Virus record (IMG/VR): IMGVR_UViG_3300042328_002052
Span: 1 to 57,886 of that record
Direction: 5' to 3' (one strand)
Length of the DNA stretch: 57,886 nucleotides
Source of the DNA: a virus
Below are positions 5,834 through 40,776 of the stretch, piece by piece. A model generated the notes under the pieces. The model made no database searches. It saw nothing but the letters and a program-made list of their open reading frames with translations, and was not told the origin of the DNA. Both the position numbers and the translations under genes were made by a program. How positions within the stretch are numbered: the stretch's first letter is position 1; each line of letters starts with the position of its first letter.

Positions 5834-6205
5834 ATGCCACTCTCACTATTCGAAGAAGACAACATTACTCAGACTCCTCAAAAAACTTCAACCAAAATAA
5901 AGAGAACTCGCCGGGTCAATGATGTAAAGAAAACCTACAAGGCTATCCGGAGGCAGAGTAAGTGCATCGACTGTGGATGGAAGAGAATTCCAGCAGTATT
6001 GGAATTTCACCATCTAGAAGAGGGTGGCCGAGAACCGACACGGACTCGTAGAAGTCGCACAGTCCAGCCGCATACCCACAAAACCGTTGAAAAGATGGAA
6101 GAAGAAATGACAAAGGGCGATTTTCTGTGCCCGACCTGCCACAAGTGCCGTCATTACAACGAGGAGCTGGATATATTGGATACGGCAAACAAAAATTTGA
6201 GATAA
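5834..6205 (+). CDS. HNH-type endonuclease-like protein
   Basis: 123 residues. A CIDCG zinc knuckle at about 42-46 is followed by LEFHHL (HNH-like His pair at about 58-61) and then LCPTCHKCRH near 103-112: the CxxC...HH...CxxC layout of small HNH proteins. ATG 5834 is chosen over 5816 because TACACT lies six bases upstream. It stands alone between a terminator and a late promoter, as free-standing homing-type genes often do. Whether it cuts DNA cannot be judged. Confidence 0.65.
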   Translation: MPLSLFEEDNITQTPQKTSTKIKRTRRVNDVKKTYKAIRRQSKCIDCGWKRIPAVLEFHHLEEGGREPTRTRRSRTVQPHTHKTVEKMEEEMTKGDFLCPTCHKCRHYNEELDILDTANKNLR

Positions 6206-27154: not shown

Positions 27155-27189
27155 AAAAAACCCGGTTTTTCAGATGCGGGAAAACCGGG
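27155..27189 (-). terminator. Terminator of the tRNA-Tyr/tmRNA operon
   Basis: Minus strand CCCGGTTTT and AAAACCGGG stem followed by TTTTTT, directly after the tmRNA coding piece. Confidence 0.9.
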
Positions 27190-27475
27190 AAACCCCACTG
27201 CTTTAAGCAGCCATCCGCATTGGTGCGGCTTTTATATTTGCAACTGTTTATTTACGACACTTGTTACCCGTGTCGGGTATCTCCTTCTTCAATACTTTAC
27301 GACAGTCGAAGCCAGTTCAGCCCCTTAATGACCTGAAGCCTAGGACTTCAGGTCGTGCCCCGCTGCTACGAGGACTTGTCTCGCCGTCTCCAGAGGTTGC
27401 AGGGACTCTGGGTTAGGCTAATGGAGCCGAGGGAAATCGAATCCCTGTGTTGCCGTATTTCTATCCAAGATCAAC
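27190..27475 (-). ncRNA. ssrA: Circularly permuted (two-piece) tmRNA
   Basis: On the minus strand the acceptor half comes first: T-arm AGGGA-TTCGATT-TCCCT (27446-27430), then CGGCTCC and discriminator A (27422), with CCA not encoded. After about 97 bases comes GGGGCTG (27324-27318), which pairs with CGGCTCC including G3-U70, the alanyl identity pair, and continues AACTGGCTTCGACTG like normal tmRNA 5' ends. PK1 is visible (ACCC/GGGT interleaved with GACAC/GTGTC, 27278-27256). The resume codon GCA is 27241-27239, giving the tag ANIKAAPMRMAA and a TAA inside the hairpin CTGCT-TAA-AGCAG. A terminator follows, so the later pseudoknots are absent, as in other permuted tmRNAs. It rescues stalled ribosomes and tags products for proteolysis. 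Confidence 0.92.
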
Positions 27476-27493
27476 AATACCAATATTATTTAG

Positions 27494-27575
27494 TGCGAGC
27501 AGGAGGATTCGAACCTTCGTAGGCGATGCCATCTGATTTACAGTCAGACCTCTTTGACCACTTGAGTATACTCGC
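27494..27575 (-). tRNA. tRNA-Tyr (GTA)
   Basis: Class II tRNA of 82 bases on the minus strand: acceptor GCGAG.../...CTCGC, anticodon stem CTGAC with loop TGTAAAT region giving GTA, long variable arm, T-loop TTCGAAT, discriminator A. It is upstream of the tmRNA on the same transcript. Confidence 0.93.
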
Positions 27576-27589
27576 TAAAAACGGGCATT

Positions 27590-27720
27590 GAATCCTTTTT
27601 CCAAGGCCGATCAAGCCTTGGGAAGTATAGTGCTAGCCCTTCGCGTTCTTCTGAGGTATTCGCGCCCCACCTCTGATTGCTGCGGGGTATCAGTTATCCC
27701 TAAGCAGCTTTATAGATTAC
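27590..27720 (-). ncRNA. Structured leader RNA of the tRNA-Tyr/tmRNA operon
   Basis: Between the promoter and tRNA-Tyr. Minus-strand pairings by eye: CTGAT-A-CCCC-GCAGCA-ATCAG-AGGT-GGGG, which can form an H-type pseudoknot; CGCG closing an AATACCTCAGAAGAA loop; and CCAAGGC(TTGATCG)GCCTTGG, a seven-base-pair hairpin. No reading frame. Possible small RNA or processing leader. Confidence 0.45.
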
Positions 27721-27726
27721 AGCCAT

Positions 27727-27786
27727 ACTATATATCACAATACCATGGAGTCAATTAATTGACTTGCTCTTTTTACAGGATATATT
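27727..27786. promoter_or_regulatory. Palindromic divergent promoter pair
   Basis: AGTCAATTAATTGACT (27749-27764) contains TTGACT on both strands. Plus: TTGACT, 16 bases, TATATT, six bases, ATG 27793. Minus: TTGACT, 16 bases, TATAGT (27732-27727), leading into the leader RNA, tRNA-Tyr and tmRNA. Confidence 0.8.
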
Positions 27787-33842: not shown

Positions 33843-33850
33843 TATTTATG
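33843..33850 (-). promoter_or_regulatory. T4-like late promoter (CATAAATA)
   Basis: Minus strand, seven bases before ATG 33835. Confidence 0.6.
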
Positions 33851-36800
33851 TAATATAGGTTGGAGTACCACCATTTGTTGCTCCGCGCAACATTGTAAGA
33901 GGATTGTATGTAATACCGTTTATTGGTAGGTTTAGTACACCAAGTCTTTGGGCTTCTGGAACTGGCGGATTGGTGACCACTGGCAATTCGTATGTATTAG
34001 TGGTCCACCAAACACCAAATTTATTATTTCCATTCTTAATAAAGTTGGTAACTCCAGCAACATTGTATGTTGTAGGTTGTCCTGTTACCGATCCTTGGAT
34101 TGTCACAGAACTTGTTGCTGGGTGAGCAAAAGTTACTCTCCACAGATAGGTTCCGTTTACCAGTTGTGCACCAGACATCAAATATTCTCTTTCATCGAAG
34201 TTTACTGGTGCAAGATACATGGTTTCAGATACAACTCCTCCAGCAATAGTATTGCATTCGTGAACAACATCGTTCACCTTTCTAGCAAGATCCATTGCAA
34301 GTGCACCACATACTCCAAAACTTGTTACTCCGGCAGTAACTCTTGGGAATCTTTGATTTTCCGCTGGTGCAATTGGACCACCTGTATTATAAGCGCAAGT
34401 GTAACTTATAGGATTCCAGTAAGAATACTTCCAAGTTTTATTAATATACTGGTGTCTCATGTTTTCGTAGAACATGGGACCATTTTCACCTTGCAAGAAA
34501 GTAATTCCCTGTGCTACAGTATTTGTAAAGTATGTACCAGCTGTCAATCCAGTTGGAACAAAGTAATAATTTGCCAAGTTCAAATTTGAAGATGGTGTAA
34601 TGCTTTCGCCACTATATTCCTCATCGGATTTCCAATTTTGGATAGCTATCCAAGTGTTAATTGGTTTTTGAATTCCATTCCAACGAGAATTTGCAACTGG
34701 AGGAAGAACATTAGCTCTTTGTGCATTTGCTCTGTACACATTAACAAGAGCAAGATGGCGACCCCAAGAAACATCTGCTAGTAATGCAACGAAACCCATT
34801 GGATACCAGTGAGTCCAGTATTGGTTATATATTGATCCTGCTGGTAATGTGTTTCCCGGCACAGGATAACCACAGTTATCAAAATCATCTCTTGACCAGA
34901 AAGTAAAACCAGATGCACCGCCTCTACTCAAATTTCTACGAACAGTAATCCCACCCATTGTGAGCCCGACAACTATATCTTTTCCTAGTGTTGGAATATG
35001 GTTTGCGGGACCATATGTTACACCAGAATTCCAGTTTAGATTTGTTATATTGAATACTGGATTCAAATACCAAGAAGGTAAGTGTGGAGCTCTATCATAT
35101 CCACATAGTGTTGTAGCACATGCAGTAGAACCAGAGGCACCCGATACATCAAACCTGAACGCAGCACTATTTCCAAGACGCTCGGCACAATAAAGGAATT
35201 CAACTAGTTGTCCAGCTGAAGCTCCTGTATTTCCTAGATAATTTCCGGGTAACCAAGATTTTAAGAATTTTGATTCACCTTTAGCGACAATTGCATTATA
35301 CATGGTGAAGTTAGCAACATGTCTTTTTGCAAATGTATTTCCAGAATTAGCTTGACCAAAAGAATTACCAGAATAATCCAAGTTTCGGTCAATAGATCTT
35401 GGAGAATTGCTTATTTCGTGGAAAGCTGCACCCACTCCACCATATGCGTGAATATCACCAAAGTTTCCTACTTCTCTTGTGTATGTCTTTGGTGAATTTA
35501 AACCACTTACATCGTGTGTATCAAAACCATAATAATATACAACTTGTGCATCTGATGCTGCCCTTGGTATTGGATACTTTAAATAATCTGGTGTGCTTTG
35601 ATTCATGTCTCTATTCATGAATCCAGTATAAGACCAATCTAAACTTGGTGGATTTTTAAAATTAGCAACGCCAACATTTGTTTTATAATATCCATAGTTT
35701 GAAACGGGATAATTATCTGCAGTTAAACCAAAAGCTTGTTTGAAATCATTTGCAGCATCTGTCCAATGGGCGGCTACCCAATCTTTCATAATTGCTGCAT
35801 ATTCTGAAAGCTGCCATTGGAAAGCAGAACCACTTATTACAATATTTCCTGTTATACCCGCACACTGTCCCCTAAATGTCATTCCATCAACATTTTTCCA
35901 ACCAGATCCTGTAGTGTAACCCATAGAAAGCATGAAAGCTCGCATGGAAGTGATGCCTTCGGCAATCAAGCAATCTGGTGCAGCACAAATTCCAGTAAAT
36001 GAAGCCCACCAAGTATTTCCTGTTGGGCTATTATTTGGATACAACCAAACATTTTGTGCGCCCGAGTCGTTATCTATAGACCTAAAATCAAAGAAATTAT
36101 AATATTCATCATCACATTCCCAACCACCCATTGTGAATCCACAAGCACCCATCAAAGCATATACTGTATTCAATTCTTTGCGAACAAAATTCATTTTTCT
36201 TTTCAACCACGGAGTTGGGGTTAATATTCCACCTCTTACTCCGTTAGAGAATACTACAGTATCCGCATTTGCAATTCCTGTGGCTCCAAAACCCGCAATT
36301 CCATCTATAGCTCTCCAATGTCTACTGGGTGCCAAAATTCTTTTCTCTGGTGGAACCCAAGAAAATATTTCCATTATGTTTATTACGTCTTGGTATAATA
36401 TAAATCCAGTAGAACCAAAACTCATTCCAATGTAACCTGTTGGGGTGTTCCATGGAGCTTGGTTCCAGTTTATGTCGAAAGAGCCAACAGGATCACCGAC
36501 ACCGGACCAGTTATTATCTGTTGCACTCATTGATGGAGGAAAATTGCCTAAAGCTAACTGTGCTTTGTCTGGTCCTTTTTTACCAGAAGGCAAAAATACC
36601 GAGTACCACATATAGGTAAGTCCGTTTTGACTTCCCCACTGTTCTGTTTGGTTCCACCAACCATAAGGTGATTGCCACATATCTACAAATGGTTCTATAT
36701 TTGCTGCACTTATAGCTGATCTTCTATCAGTTCCACCATCAGTATCGCTAGAATCCGCCAAACCTTCAAATTCTTGATCAGAATAACCCAAGGAAGCTGC

Positions 36801-37013
36801 AAGAGCCACTGCTTGTGCATAATCCATGGCGTGACCAAATTGGTTCACGAACATATTCAAATCAGGATTAAATGAATAAACTAAACCATTGTAGCTAAAG
36901 CTTGATGGTGCGCTTGAATTCTTAGATTCTTTAATAATTCTATAATCAATTCTGTTAAGTTCATTTCCATAAGAAGCCAAGAACATGTGTAGTGGATTAT
37001 AGTGGTTTAGCAT
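33846..37013 (-). CDS. Giant adhesin/fibre protein, paralogue 1 (1055 aa)
   Basis: Shares its first about 98 residues (HMFLASYGNELNR, SSFSYNGLVYSFNPDLN and EFEGLADS.DTDGGTDRR) and its last about 150 (ETMYLAPVN, SGAQLVNGTYLWRVTF and NPPVPE) with the gene at 37033. The middle is Gly-, Asn-, Trp- and Tyr-rich, as in receptor-binding proteins, and diverges strongly between the two. The conserved N-terminus is probably the virion attachment part, the C-terminus a tip or trimerisation part. Late promoter 16 bases upstream. Which fibre it forms is not known. Confidence 0.7.
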   Translation of the reverse strand: MLNHYNPLHMFLASYGNELNRIDYRIIKESKNSSAPSSFSYNGLVYSFNPDLNMFVNQFGHAMDYAQAVALAASLGYSDQEFEGLADSSDTDGGTDRRSAISAANIEPFVDMWQSPYGWWNQTEQWGSQNGLTYMWYSVFLPSGKKGPDKAQLALGNFPPSMSATDNNWSGVGDPVGSFDINWNQAPWNTPTGYIGMSFGSTGFILYQDVINIMEIFSWVPPEKRILAPSRHWRAIDGIAGFGATGIANADTVVFSNGVRGGILTPTPWLKRKMNFVRKELNTVYALMGACGFTMGGWECDDEYYNFFDFRSIDNDSGAQNVWLYPNNSPTGNTWWASFTGICAAPDCLIAEGITSMRAFMLSMGYTTGSGWKNVDGMTFRGQCAGITGNIVISGSAFQWQLSEYAAIMKDWVAAHWTDAANDFKQAFGLTADNYPVSNYGYYKTNVGVANFKNPPSLDWSYTGFMNRDMNQSTPDYLKYPIPRAASDAQVVYYYGFDTHDVSGLNSPKTYTREVGNFGDIHAYGGVGAAFHEISNSPRSIDRNLDYSGNSFGQANSGNTFAKRHVANFTMYNAIVAKGESKFLKSWLPGNYLGNTGASAGQLVEFLYCAERLGNSAAFRFDVSGASGSTACATTLCGYDRAPHLPSWYLNPVFNITNLNWNSGVTYGPANHIPTLGKDIVVGLTMGGITVRRNLSRGGASGFTFWSRDDFDNCGYPVPGNTLPAGSIYNQYWTHWYPMGFVALLADVSWGRHLALVNVYRANAQRANVLPPVANSRWNGIQKPINTWIAIQNWKSDEEYSGESITPSSNLNLANYYFVPTGLTAGTYFTNTVAQGITFLQGENGPMFYENMRHQYINKTWKYSYWNPISYTCAYNTGGPIAPAENQRFPRVTAGVTSFGVCGALAMDLARKVNDVVHECNTIAGGVVSETMYLAPVNFDEREYLMSGAQLVNGTYLWRVTFAHPATSSVTIQGSVTGQPTTYNVAGVTNFIKNGNNKFGVWWTTNTYELPVVTNPPVPEAQRLGVLNLPINGITYNPLTMLRGATNGGTPTYIT

Positions 37014-37029
37014 GATTTTCTTTGTATAT

Positions 37030-37037
37030 TATTTATG
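37030..37037 (-). promoter_or_regulatory. T4-like late promoter (CATAAATA)
   Basis: Minus strand, 16 bases before ATG 37013, with an A-rich leader. Confidence 0.6.
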
Positions 37038-40000
37038 GGAATGCTGATACACCATTCCAAGTTGTTGTTCCCGCAGGCAATCCCGGATTTATGGGCTGTG
37101 GGGGATTCAAAACTACTGGAATTTCATAGGTACTGGATGACCACCACACTCCTCTATGGTGGTTAGCATTATCTATAAAATTAGTAACTCCAGCTATATT
37201 ATATTGAGTAATCTGATTTGTAACACTTCCTCTGACGTTTATAACTTCGGATGCAGGGTGCAAGAATGTGATGCGCCACATGTAGCTTCCATCCACTAGC
37301 TGTGCACCAGAAATGTGATATTCTTTTTCAGAATTGTTTACTGGAGCCAAGTACATGGTTTCGTTTACCATTCCTTTGCACGTGGTATTACATTCATGCA
37401 ACAATGTATTTACTCGCATACCACCTCTATAAACCAGATCACCACAAACACCACCTAAAGTGAATCCACATACTCCAGTGGGTGCAGCAACTACTTTGTC
37501 ATTTCCAAGAATTCCTCTAACTTCATCTGGATTCAAAACAGGCCATGCCAACACTTTGGTGTTTCTATTCCATTGAGGAACAGGTTCTGTCCTTCCCGGA
37601 TTTACAACACAACTGTATTCCCCACCACCCCAAGTAGTAAATGCATTTGCTTTGTGTAAGAAAGCATGTCTAAAATTTTCTGCCCAGTAATCGTTTATAT
37701 CACCATAGAAGAAAGTTGCTCCTCTTAGTTTATAACCGGAGCCATCCCAATTTTGCCAAGAAACATCGTAGGTAATTCCCTTTGGTTTGAAGTAACCGTA
37801 GTAATAAACACCATTATCTTTCATGTATGCTGTATTGTCATTTGCTAAGTTGAACGTACCCATTATGGCCATATTTGGATCCAAAATCCAATAGTGTGAT
37901 GGGTTTTGTTGAGCAGCTGGATTTCCTGCATTTCTTTCGACAAATGTCTTCAGCATTTCGGTTCTTGCCATGCTTCTCATAGAACATAGATCTGCAACAA
38001 ATGCAAACCAACCCATAGGATACCAGTGAGTATCATAATCTCTGTAAATAGTACCCGGTAAGAAAGTTATTCCGGGATATGGGAATCCACAGCTATCCCA
38101 TAAGAACAAGGCTCCACTGTAACTTGGATTTGTTGTAAGTGCTTCTACTGTATATGCACCTTGTGTTACACCATAAACAGCTGACCACAAATTTGTTGGC
38201 AGCATATTTACTGGGCCATTTCTATCGGTACATTGTGTTATTCCAAAAATATCATGAAAGAACCACGGCATTGATTTTGGAGCTTGACCATTGCAAGTAG
38301 TACAAGTTGCACCCATTCCAGCTGAAACTCCAGAATAATTTCTTGCATATGTTTCCATACACCAGTTATTTGGAATTCCAAAAGATGAATTGTTAAATGT
38401 AAATCCTAGGCCACCGTTAACGCTTACTCCTCTATAATTTCCCGGAACGTGTAGTCTCATCGGTCCAGTATTTTGTCCAGCACTTGAATATGCTGAACCA
38501 ACCATAAATTCATAGTTTGATTTAATACCTAAACTGCTGCCAGCGTAGCCATATGTATTTCCATAATAAATTCTTCCAAAATCAAATAAATTGGTTGTCG
38601 CTGAACCGAAATTGAAACTTCCATTAATTATTCTTGCTCCAATATTTGTAGGAACACCGATATAATTATTTGGGAATGGCCCATACAAATTCATTGAACC
38701 TTGATTTCCATTTTTGGAAAATTCTGGTCCAGAACTTGCTGTTGATATATCTATTCCTGCAAATGCTTTTGTTGCCTTTGGCTCGCTTAAAGATGTGGTT
38801 GGATAAATTTGTGTTTCTACATCCGGAGAAACTAGAGTCAAATTATTTGGAAGTGGGTTATTTCCCAAAAATGTTCCATAAGTTTCTTTGTATGAATAAT
38901 TATTAATAATAGCTGTAGTATTTCCAGTACCAACCATTATTTCTTTGAATGGTTGCACCATAGCATCTTCTACGAAATAACCAACAAATTCTTGTATAAC
39001 GGCATCCCATACACTGCCTTGCCAAATATTACTGGATCCGCCGGGATTTATTGAATCTTTGCTATTATTTTGTGATATATTGAGCAAGTCTACGCAAAAA
39101 GCTTGTGAAGTATTTGTAGTAGAACCACGAAGGATTAACAAATCTCTAAAATTTGTAACACCAGTATTCAAAAATAGGCTTCTAGGTGCGGCAGAGGCTC
39201 CAGTAAAACCTATCCACCAAGTATTTCCAGTAGAAATTCCTGAAGTTCTGAATAGATTTTTTTCAATACCAGACGCAGTAGATGTTCTATTTAATGTATA
39301 CAACGATGAAGCATAGAAAGCTTCGTCATCATTCAACATTCCAGACATCGTAAAGCCTCTATTTTTGAGAGCAGTGAGAATATTTCTCATCTCTCTTTCG
39401 GCATATTGAGTTTTTCTGGCTTTATAGGGAGAAACCCACACATTTCCAAGACCATTCACTACATTTTCGCTGACTGTTGTTGTTGTTGTTGGAATATAAT
39501 TGGTCGCTATTTCATTTTCTTCAATCTGTCCACCCCAAGCAATAATCTGGGAAGCATACGTATTACCAGCACCTATATTTGGTCCTGTTACACCAACAAC
39601 TCTTAACAACATTCCCATAGTTGTGGCCGGAGGCTGAACTATGAATTGGGCTTGATATCTAGTCCAAGCCGTTCCCAGTGAAATAGAACCCCAAGAACCA
39701 CCAGAAGATATAATATTTTGATTTGGTAAAAATTCTACAAATAAACCTGCTGTCAATCCTCTTAACCAAATACTTGAACTATATGTTGCAGAAGGATTAG
39801 ATAAATTTATATTTTGACCAAAATTATAAGAAGTTGTTCCCGGTATATTATTGTAAACAATTCTAGTTGCTGTTAAAGATCCATCTGGTGCAGTATCACC
39901 CAACGATAGTGCTGTTGCGCCATTTGAAGTATTCCAAGGGGTTATATGTAAATTTTGACTTTGGAGAATTAAATTTGTTCTTCGAACATATTCTATTCCA

Positions 40001-40776
40001 GTTATGCCACCGCCGTCTGTAAAGGCAGACCAGAGTTTTCCGGGCATGAACATTCTATGTTCTGGTGGTATCCAACTATATGCATCAATTATATTATCTA
40101 TTTCTAGTGTAAATCCGTGATTAGTTGCACCAAAAGTAAAATCATTTGGAACAGTTGGGCGTTGAACATATTCATACTTATTCCAAAAATATTGATAATC
40201 ATTATTATTTGGGCCTCCGATTCCGGTCCAACCTCCACTGAAACCGTATGGGCTATTAAAAGTCAAATTATCAGCCCAAACACCAGCCAAAGTAAGTCCA
40301 TAATTTCTATTAAAGTACCATATTGCCGGATAACAATATGTCAACCCTTTAGTATCGTTATATGACGAAGGCCATGTAATTCCGTAAGCAGGACCACCTT
40401 TTCCATATATTGGGAATCCATAGAATGAATACCAGCTATAATTGTAAACAAATGGGTTACTTAATGTATTAATGCTAGATCTTCTTCTGTCGGTTCCACC
40501 ATCAGTATCCGTAGAATCTGCTAAACCTTCAAATTCTTGTTCTGAGTAACCTAAAGATGCTGCAAGTGCAACTGCCTGCGCATAATCCATCGCATGGCCA
40601 AATTGGTTCACAAACATGTTCAGATCGGGGTTAAAGGAATAAACTAGACCATTGTAGCTGAAGCTTGATGGAGAGCTTGAGCTCTTGGACTCCTTAATCA
40701 TTCTGAAATCAACACGATTCAATTCATTTCCATAAGAAGCCAAGAACATGTGTAGTGGATTATAACGGTTTAGCAT
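37033..40776 (-). CDS. Giant adhesin/fibre protein, paralogue 2 with CBM-like insertion (1247 aa)
   Basis: Same N- and C-terminal frames as paralogue 1, but longer. Residues about 265-436 form a domain absent from paralogue 1: RRTNLILQSQNL, APDGSLTATRI, TYSSSIWLRG, TAWTRYQAQF and the end WGGQIEENEIATNYIPTT. This is the recurring carbohydrate-binding-like module of phage tail fibres and tailspikes. It replaces a short loop of about 25 residues in the paralogue. Together with the aromatic- and Gly-rich middle this marks a receptor-binding protein for a surface glycan. AAGGAAAA serves as Shine-Dalgarno. Confidence 0.75.
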   Translation of the reverse strand: MLNRYNPLHMFLASYGNELNRVDFRMIKESKSSSSPSSFSYNGLVYSFNPDLNMFVNQFGHAMDYAQAVALAASLGYSEQEFEGLADSTDTDGGTDRRRSSINTLSNPFVYNYSWYSFYGFPIYGKGGPAYGITWPSSYNDTKGLTYCYPAIWYFNRNYGLTLAGVWADNLTFNSPYGFSGGWTGIGGPNNNDYQYFWNKYEYVQRPTVPNDFTFGATNHGFTLEIDNIIDAYSWIPPEHRMFMPGKLWSAFTDGGGITGIEYVRRTNLILQSQNLHITPWNTSNGATALSLGDTAPDGSLTATRIVYNNIPGTTSYNFGQNINLSNPSATYSSSIWLRGLTAGLFVEFLPNQNIISSGGSWGSISLGTAWTRYQAQFIVQPPATTMGMLLRVVGVTGPNIGAGNTYASQIIAWGGQIEENEIATNYIPTTTTTVSENVVNGLGNVWVSPYKARKTQYAEREMRNILTALKNRGFTMSGMLNDDEAFYASSLYTLNRTSTASGIEKNLFRTSGISTGNTWWIGFTGASAAPRSLFLNTGVTNFRDLLILRGSTTNTSQAFCVDLLNISQNNSKDSINPGGSSNIWQGSVWDAVIQEFVGYFVEDAMVQPFKEIMVGTGNTTAIINNYSYKETYGTFLGNNPLPNNLTLVSPDVETQIYPTTSLSEPKATKAFAGIDISTASSGPEFSKNGNQGSMNLYGPFPNNYIGVPTNIGARIINGSFNFGSATTNLFDFGRIYYGNTYGYAGSSLGIKSNYEFMVGSAYSSAGQNTGPMRLHVPGNYRGVSVNGGLGFTFNNSSFGIPNNWCMETYARNYSGVSAGMGATCTTCNGQAPKSMPWFFHDIFGITQCTDRNGPVNMLPTNLWSAVYGVTQGAYTVEALTTNPSYSGALFLWDSCGFPYPGITFLPGTIYRDYDTHWYPMGWFAFVADLCSMRSMARTEMLKTFVERNAGNPAAQQNPSHYWILDPNMAIMGTFNLANDNTAYMKDNGVYYYGYFKPKGITYDVSWQNWDGSGYKLRGATFFYGDINDYWAENFRHAFLHKANAFTTWGGGEYSCVVNPGRTEPVPQWNRNTKVLAWPVLNPDEVRGILGNDKVVAAPTGVCGFTLGGVCGDLVYRGGMRVNTLLHECNTTCKGMVNETMYLAPVNNSEKEYHISGAQLVDGSYMWRITFLHPASEVINVRGSVTNQITQYNIAGVTNFIDNANHHRGVWWSSSTYEIPVVLNPPQPINPGLPAGTTTWNGVSAFP

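Follow-up and report, generated by a model that had tools for sequence, protein, structure and literature searches.

A Circularly Permuted tmRNA Gene with a Conserved Structured Spacer in a Lineage of T4-Like Phages

Introduction

Cutting of two-piece tmRNAs is generally ascribed to RNase P and tRNase Z, and in their usual layout PK1 and PK2 are placed around the tag (PMC3985003). Two-piece tmRNAs of phages have already been published; in a set of 133 unique tmRNA structures from phages, 53 were permuted (PMC9004378). The same work deals with the ssrA gene of the Methylophilales phage Melnitz, for which a glutamine riboswitch was also reported (PMC9004378). Here we describe a tmRNA locus on the minus strand of a virus contig of 57,886 bases. 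This contig is called the window throughout.

Results and Discussion

Phage Context of the Locus

The record is classed as linear and is therefore probably a fragment. It encodes a gp41-like replicative helicase with 54.6% identity to that of Melnitz and 53% identity to that of S-SSM7. Moreover, primase, ThyX, B12-dependent RNR and CobS/CobT-like genes are present. On sequence grounds the virus is a T4-like phage near the Kyanoviridae and related to Melnitz. Between window positions 6001 and 21000 the G+C content is 47-59%, compared to 37-43% elsewhere. This shift is sharp, the CobS/CobT-like genes lie inside it, and the region from 6 to 21 kb possibly reflects a mosaic. The minus strand at 33846-40776 encodes two large adjacent proteins, of 1055 and 1247 aa, whose N-termini are almost the same (MLN[HR]YNPLHMFLASYGNELNR). 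No PHROG match was obtained for the 1055-aa protein; the two are possibly paralogous structural or host-contact proteins.

Identification of the Permuted tmRNA Gene

The merged Rfam model RF04321 (tmRNA_permuted) matched positions 27481-27203 of the minus strand in a search of the whole window. The match reached 63.0 bits (gathering score 47, E value 7.5e-10), and the alignment covered the model in full length (positions 1-213 of 213). The region is assigned as a circularly permuted tmRNA gene with the following parts.

27422-27481, minus strand: tRNA 3' half (acceptor piece); the RF04321 alignment starts at 27481, and the GGTATTGTTGAT start is conserved in relatives
27430-27446, minus strand: T-arm of the tRNA-like domain, in the 3' half; AGGGATTCGATTTCCCT, 5/5 pairs, inside the RF04321 match
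27429-27423, minus strand: acceptor 3' strand CGGCTCC, pairing with GGGGCTG
27422, minus strand: discriminator A (A73), present in 63/63 relatives
27421-27325, minus strand: spacer (IVS) of 97 nt between the discriminator A and G1
27161-27324, minus strand: tRNA 5' half together with the mRNA-like piece; it starts at G1 (acceptor strand GGGGCTG) and runs through the terminator/PK2 stem
27255-27278, minus strand: PK1 with S1 ACCC/GGGT and S2 GACAC/GTGTC; compensated S2 pairs in relatives
27198-27210, minus strand: stop-codon hairpin CTGC-TTAAA-GCAG (H5-like), one pair of which is seen as UA, CG and GC

The 3' half is encoded ahead of the 5' half, and the acceptor strands (27429-27423 and 27324-27318) form 7/7 pairs including G3-U70. 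A preliminary description had read a phage-borne circularly permuted tmRNA from the letters alone, with the discriminator A at 27422, GGGGCTG from 27324, a 97-nt spacer and the G3-U70 pair in the acceptor. All of these positions were upheld. The reading itself, and the assignment as an alanine-type tmRNA, are supported by the RF04321 match, by the G3-U70 pair that all 63 relatives retain and by the T4-like context. ARAGORN made no tmRNA call in the window; in L007 and L009, which are close relatives, it calls the same tmRNA gene, and the tag there is identical.

With the older models the window scored 40.1 bits for beta (RF01850, cut-off 84; best relative 58.0), 30.7 bits for cyano (RF01851, cut-off 70) and 14.2 bits for alpha (RF01849, cut-off 50). 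A covariance search with these three models had been named earlier as a check on the gene. They all stayed below their cut-offs, whereas RF04321 exceeded its gathering score.

Relatives of the Gene and Evidence for Selection

A PK1 pattern detected 78 stretches in IMG/VR, which combined with others gave 63 distinct complete genes. The acceptor with 7/7 pairs and the alanine identity elements G3-U70 and A73, present in the window, were found in 63/63 relatives across eight different acceptor stems. Their retention over eight stems indicates that the tmRNA gene is under selection. The T-arm has 5/5 pairs in all relatives except one (4/5), and CCA is encoded in none (0/63).

Among 50 distinct 5' pieces, compensatory changes were observed in PK1, in the stop hairpin and in a hairpin inside the tag frame. 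Of all cells in this alignment, 92.3% were paired, and the covariation score was 0.122 compared to 0.070 for shuffled data (0/500 shuffles; slid controls all lower). In five relatives two pairs of PK1 S2 are exchanged together (AU to UA and CG to UA); S1 is weakened in five relatives. Thus, both PK1 and the stop hairpin, already recognized in the single sequence, gain the support of compensatory changes.

The PK1 pattern was absent from 84,980 GTDB bacterial and archaeal species genomes. In a nucleotide search of 50,697 phage records only the tRNA-Tyr region was found among the matches listed, with no tmRNA relative and no cultured member among them. A pattern match in L011 was rejected as a tmRNA, being coding sequence.

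A Probable PK2 and the Terminator

27161-27198, minus strand: probable PK2 fused with an intrinsic terminator; GUGGG 27198-27194 x CCCGC 27180-27176, stem CCCGGTTTT/AAAACCGGG

In the window the CCCGC of PK2 sits in the loop of the terminator hairpin. In 50/50 sequences the stop hairpin is followed by GTGGGG and the loop reads CCCGC(AT/GA)CTGA, while the stem bearing this loop occurs in at least six unrelated sequences (CCCGGTTTT, GCTGGTCTT, GGTC, GACCA, TGATCC and TAGCCCT). The invariance of GTGGGG and of the loop around changing stems makes an H-type PK2 formed by GUGGG and CCCGC most likely; the pairing itself is invariant in all 50 sequences and hence beyond the reach of covariation. The preliminary description had considered the later pseudoknots missing. 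This has to be revised, as an H-type PK2 is probably present, and its second stem probably doubles as the terminator in the window. In relatives with a short stem and without the T run a separate terminator-like hairpin follows.

The Upstream Region

27493-27575, minus strand: tRNA-Tyr(GTA), directly upstream of the tmRNA (ARAGORN, Rfam)
27576-27716, minus strand: non-coding leader from the candidate promoter to tRNA-Tyr, 81-98% identity in about 30 relatives
27727-27754, minus strand: candidate sigma-70-like promoter TTGACT-16-TATAGT, 10/12 consensus matches

Co-transcription of the tmRNA with tRNA-Tyr had been proposed before and is plausible, since tRNA-Tyr is found immediately upstream of the tmRNA in 12 relatives. 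The two RNAs are probably part of the same transcript. The near-consensus promoter was likewise found as described, but by itself it is not above chance (7 matches this good compared to 3.5 expected). In relatives the conserved block starts just downstream of the candidate promoter, and the conserved leader extends precisely to the tRNA that follows it (Thr or Tyr). Conservation of the promoter block at the sequence level in distant relatives was rejected; it is common only to very close relatives. The leader (27716-27576) had no Rfam match, and with a z of no more than -0.78 it was also rejected as a stable fold.

Some relatives carry, immediately before the tmRNA 3' half, a tRNA-like element of ~90-100 nt (GCGTAGT...GAGGTGCAAGTCCTC-ACTACGC; L007, L013, L017, L038, L041, L044, L054, L058, L072, L073, L075, L077, L093 and others). 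It has a 7-bp acceptor, a T-arm with the loop TGCAAGT and no normal anticodon arm. ARAGORN made no call for it, and no Rfam tRNA match was found among those scanned. A second tRNA-like RNA without an anticodon arm (GGTGAT...ATGGGTTTAAATCCCATATCACC) is located in the tRNA cluster (L042 at ~87-205, L052 at ~1439-1553, L050, L070, L113 and L114) and is homologous to the spacers of 165-173 nt described below.

The Tag Reading Frame

27203-27241, minus strand: tag frame GCA...TAA of the preliminary description, ANIKAAPMRMAA (12 codons plus stop), open in the window
27203-27229, minus strand: preferred tag frame GCC...TAA, AAPMRMAA (8 codons plus stop), open in all relatives

The window contains two candidate Ala resume codons; the stop-anchored 8-codon frame is conserved, whereas the GCA frame is not. 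GCA and the Ala codon that follows are 12 nt apart in 39 relatives but 13 nt apart in 24, and this spacing flips 6-7 times on the tmRNA tree. In 24/63 relatives a single base breaks the frame that starts at GCA 27241. Read from GCA, the 13-nt relatives yield AKNNC-stop, ANHDC-stop or continue past the usual stop. In contrast, the last 8 codons are free of indels in 63/63 and show mostly synonymous third-position changes (GCC/GCT, GCT/GCC/GCG, TAA/TGA); the first four codons counted from GCA have no coding pattern. RF04321 aligns the window GCA 27241 with the resume codon. For L015 both RF04321 and RF01850 choose the second Ala codon, GCU, for resumption (AAAAAAUAAUUGCUAACGA).

The absence of indels from the 8-codon frame in all members, the non-coding appearance of the codons upstream and the GCA frame broken in 24 relatives favour the shorter tag, which is probably the 8-aa AAPMRMAA. 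Corresponding tags of relatives are ANELAMAA, ANQLAMAA and ANYMAMAA. The 12-aa tag proposed earlier is indeed open in the window, but it is probably wrong because its upstream ANIK is out of frame in 24/63 relatives. The frame flips of one base ahead of the conserved tag offer a natural test of how tmRNAs choose their resume codon.

The Spacer as a Structured RNA

27418-27416 / 27385-27383, minus strand: IVS outer stem GCC/GGC, from the IVS alignment
27411-27390, minus strand: IVS hairpin a with loop CUGCAA 27402-27397, from the IVS alignment
27375-27357, minus strand: IVS hairpin b, whose loop UAGCAG (27368-27363) is a candidate for kissing with loop a, from the IVS alignment
27354-27330, minus strand: IVS hairpin c, from the IVS alignment

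In most of the 63 relatives the spacer is 71-99 nt long and alignable. In the structure deduced from 33 distinct sequences, 90.5% of the cells are paired, and for 16 pairs both sides have changed, compared to a mean of 7.7 compensated pairs after shuffling (0/500 shuffles) and at most 5 in slid controls. Four core pairs between loop a and loop b (CUGC x GCAG) are kept in 33/33 sequences. Compensation of this contact was seen for one pair only (CG to UA in L040 and L072), and the kissing interaction is regarded as a candidate. The unpaired letters are often invariant or nearly so (TTAGCC, CTGCA, GGCGA and AAGTCCTC). Folding of the window spacer as a single sequence gave a z of -3.25.

A covariance model of the IVS (R1) matched the window spacer at 107 bits. 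It detected 52 loci, every one in a tmRNA spacer and at most one per record; no match was obtained in the members with 5-6 nt spacers, S-CRM01, S-SSM7 or Melnitz. The module as a free-standing element was not found outside the tmRNA spacer. In the GTDB species genomes the most conserved spacer stretch had a single, isolated match to a Streptomyces contig, which was put down to chance, a rough estimate giving about two random matches. Neither the spacer nor its tRNA-like counterpart in L005 gave anything relevant in Rfam searches.

The spacers fall into several types: none (5-6 nt, 13 members), a+b, a+b+c, a 31-nt remnant and a 165-173 nt RNA related to tRNA-like RNA. The type changes at least nine times on the tmRNA tree. 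Spacers of 165-173 nt occur in six members (L005, L012, L048, L049, L095 and L105) as an anticodon-less tRNA-like RNA and are homologous to a tRNA-like RNA standing alone in related phages. In L086, L091 and L102 the 31-nt spacer equals the L040 spacer minus its middle, a natural deletion of the module.

The 13 members with 5-6 nt spacers and the one 31-nt remnant indicate that the IVS module is dispensable for the tmRNA. Judged by its pairing and covariation, the spacer is dispensable yet strongly selected where present. The IVS is not filler; it is most likely selected for folding separately from the acceptor stem, which would expose both processing sites, or as a small stable RNA that the same cuts would set free. 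We consider it unlikely, though worth stating, that the spacer represents a new structured RNA class, a loop-loop module that governs or performs tmRNA maturation (as a switch or by self-cleavage) or yields a phage small RNA with every tmRNA made. Apparently, strong structural selection can act on the discarded spacer of a permuted RNA gene, and the spacers of permuted tmRNAs and tRNAs therefore deserve a search for hidden RNAs.

Proposed Mechanism and Alternative Explanations

The gene architecture, the pairing and the covariation are read from the sequence, and from them the following course of transcription, cutting, charging and tagging is proposed. A single transcript would comprise the leader, tRNA-Tyr, the tmRNA 3' half, the IVS and the tmRNA 5' half with the mRNA-like piece. 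Host RNase P would cut at G1 (27324) and tRNase Z at A73 (27422). As no CCA is encoded, it would be added to the 3' end after cutting. The two pieces would be held together by the acceptor stem and the connector helix, would be charged with alanine via G3-U70 and would bind the SmpB of the host. No SmpB was detected in the window or among 20 phage records, related or known, which are fragments, so that the host protein would have to serve. The RNA would enter stalled ribosomes, and translation would resume on the tag frame ending in ...MAA-stop. During infection ribosomes would be recycled and nascent chains tagged. Recycling of ribosomes is the natural role of a tmRNA in the infected cell. 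Rescue on cleaved or leaderless messages and the diversion of products to another protease, both raised in the preliminary description, are conjectural. With good confidence we take the circularly permuted ssrA gene of this T4-like phage to be functional and to follow the processing and tagging scheme given here.

Two parts of this scheme can be read differently. Resumption might occur at GCA 27241 and add the 12-aa ANIKAAPMRMAA, the relatives with one extra base resuming at +1 (CAA) or adding short off-frame tags. The AACAGUUGCAA context of this codon is nearly invariant, and the A at -4, the most important position for resumption in E. coli tmRNA (PMC2481249), is kept in 59/63 relatives. GCA also lies 13 nt from PK1, nearer the E. 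coli spacing, and RF04321 puts the window resume codon there. The broken or overrunning frames in 24/63 relatives (AKNNC-stop, ANHDC-stop), the first four codons without a coding pattern and the choice of GCU in L015 by both models speak against it, and this start is possible but doubtful. We continue to prefer the 8-aa AAPMRMAA. For the spacer, the IVS module could be mobile, or could work as an RNA in its own right, with the tmRNA processing loop serving as its landing and release site. At least nine changes of type on the tmRNA tree, the homology of one alternative type to a stand-alone tRNA-like RNA of related phages and the tRNA-Ala gene on record within one IVS (PMC11915505) point in this direction. 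The 71-99 nt module, however, was never found outside a tmRNA spacer, and we judge this reading improbable.

Other explanations concern the function of the whole RNA. It could be a decoy or inhibitor of host trans-translation which occupies SmpB, AlaRS or ribosomes without providing a useful tag. A CDS-less tmRNA of phage DS6A offers a precedent (PMC11915505), the available phage records, as fragments, yielded no SmpB, and the start of the tag is not fixed, given the 6-7 flips of the upstream frame. A decoy would not need the PK1, stop hairpin and PK2 that are kept here, nor 8 last codons plus stop without indels and with mostly synonymous third positions in 63/63; such a role is quite unlikely. 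Even less credible is a captured and decaying fragment or relic of a host gene carried by chance, although the scores below the cut-offs of all three older permuted-tmRNA models and the weakened PK1 S1 of five relatives would fit it. Selection on every domain across 63 diverse phage variants largely refutes this explanation, and the PK1 pattern occurs in 0/84,980 bacterial and archaeal species genomes. The functional phage tmRNA remains the preferred interpretation.

Comparison with Known Permuted tmRNAs

The RF01850 match is full-length in the window and in most relatives. By its scores the family is a divergent beta-like lineage, nearest to the betaproteobacterial model and below every subfamily cut-off. 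It shares with the two-piece tmRNAs of RF04321 and RF01850 the permuted order, the alanine acceptor, the connector helix, PK1, the tag, the stop hairpin and PK2. In contrast to these, the phage lineage has a long, conserved and structured IVS and an extra hairpin inside the tag frame, and in most of its members PK2 doubles as the terminator.

The ssrA gene of Melnitz is similar in being a permuted tmRNA of a T4-like (Kyanoviridae) phage with no SmpB found and a related gp41 helicase (PMC9004378). It differs by its alpha type (106.7 bits with RF01849), its tag ANDNYVPVDYALAA and another IVS without the module. The host of Melnitz belongs to the former betaproteobacterial group and the gene is alpha-type; thus, a phage tmRNA may be of another lineage than the host. 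The cyanophages S-CRM01 and S-SSM7 also are T4-like phages with a permuted tmRNA. Unlike the present lineage, theirs are cyano-type (74 and 109 bits with RF01851, respectively) with long cyano-type tags, and the S-CRM01 spacer is short. Both genes are unannotated (HQ615693.1 88361-88533 for S-CRM01; GU071098.1 21008-21227 for S-SSM7), and the place of the S-SSM7 tmRNA is annotated as the protein SSSM7_025.

The IVS bearing a tRNA-Ala (PMC11915505) resembles the spacers of L005, L012, L048, L049, L095 and L105 in placing a second RNA between the permuted halves. That RNA is a normal tRNA in a single sequence, whereas the phage lineage mostly carries a conserved non-tRNA module. With the genes described here a large, uncultured, beta-like lineage joins the few known phage two-piece tmRNAs. 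A permuted tmRNA in a phage is as such already known; what sets this lineage apart as new is its conserved structured spacer, along with the tRNA-like spacers of some members and the flips of the tag frame.
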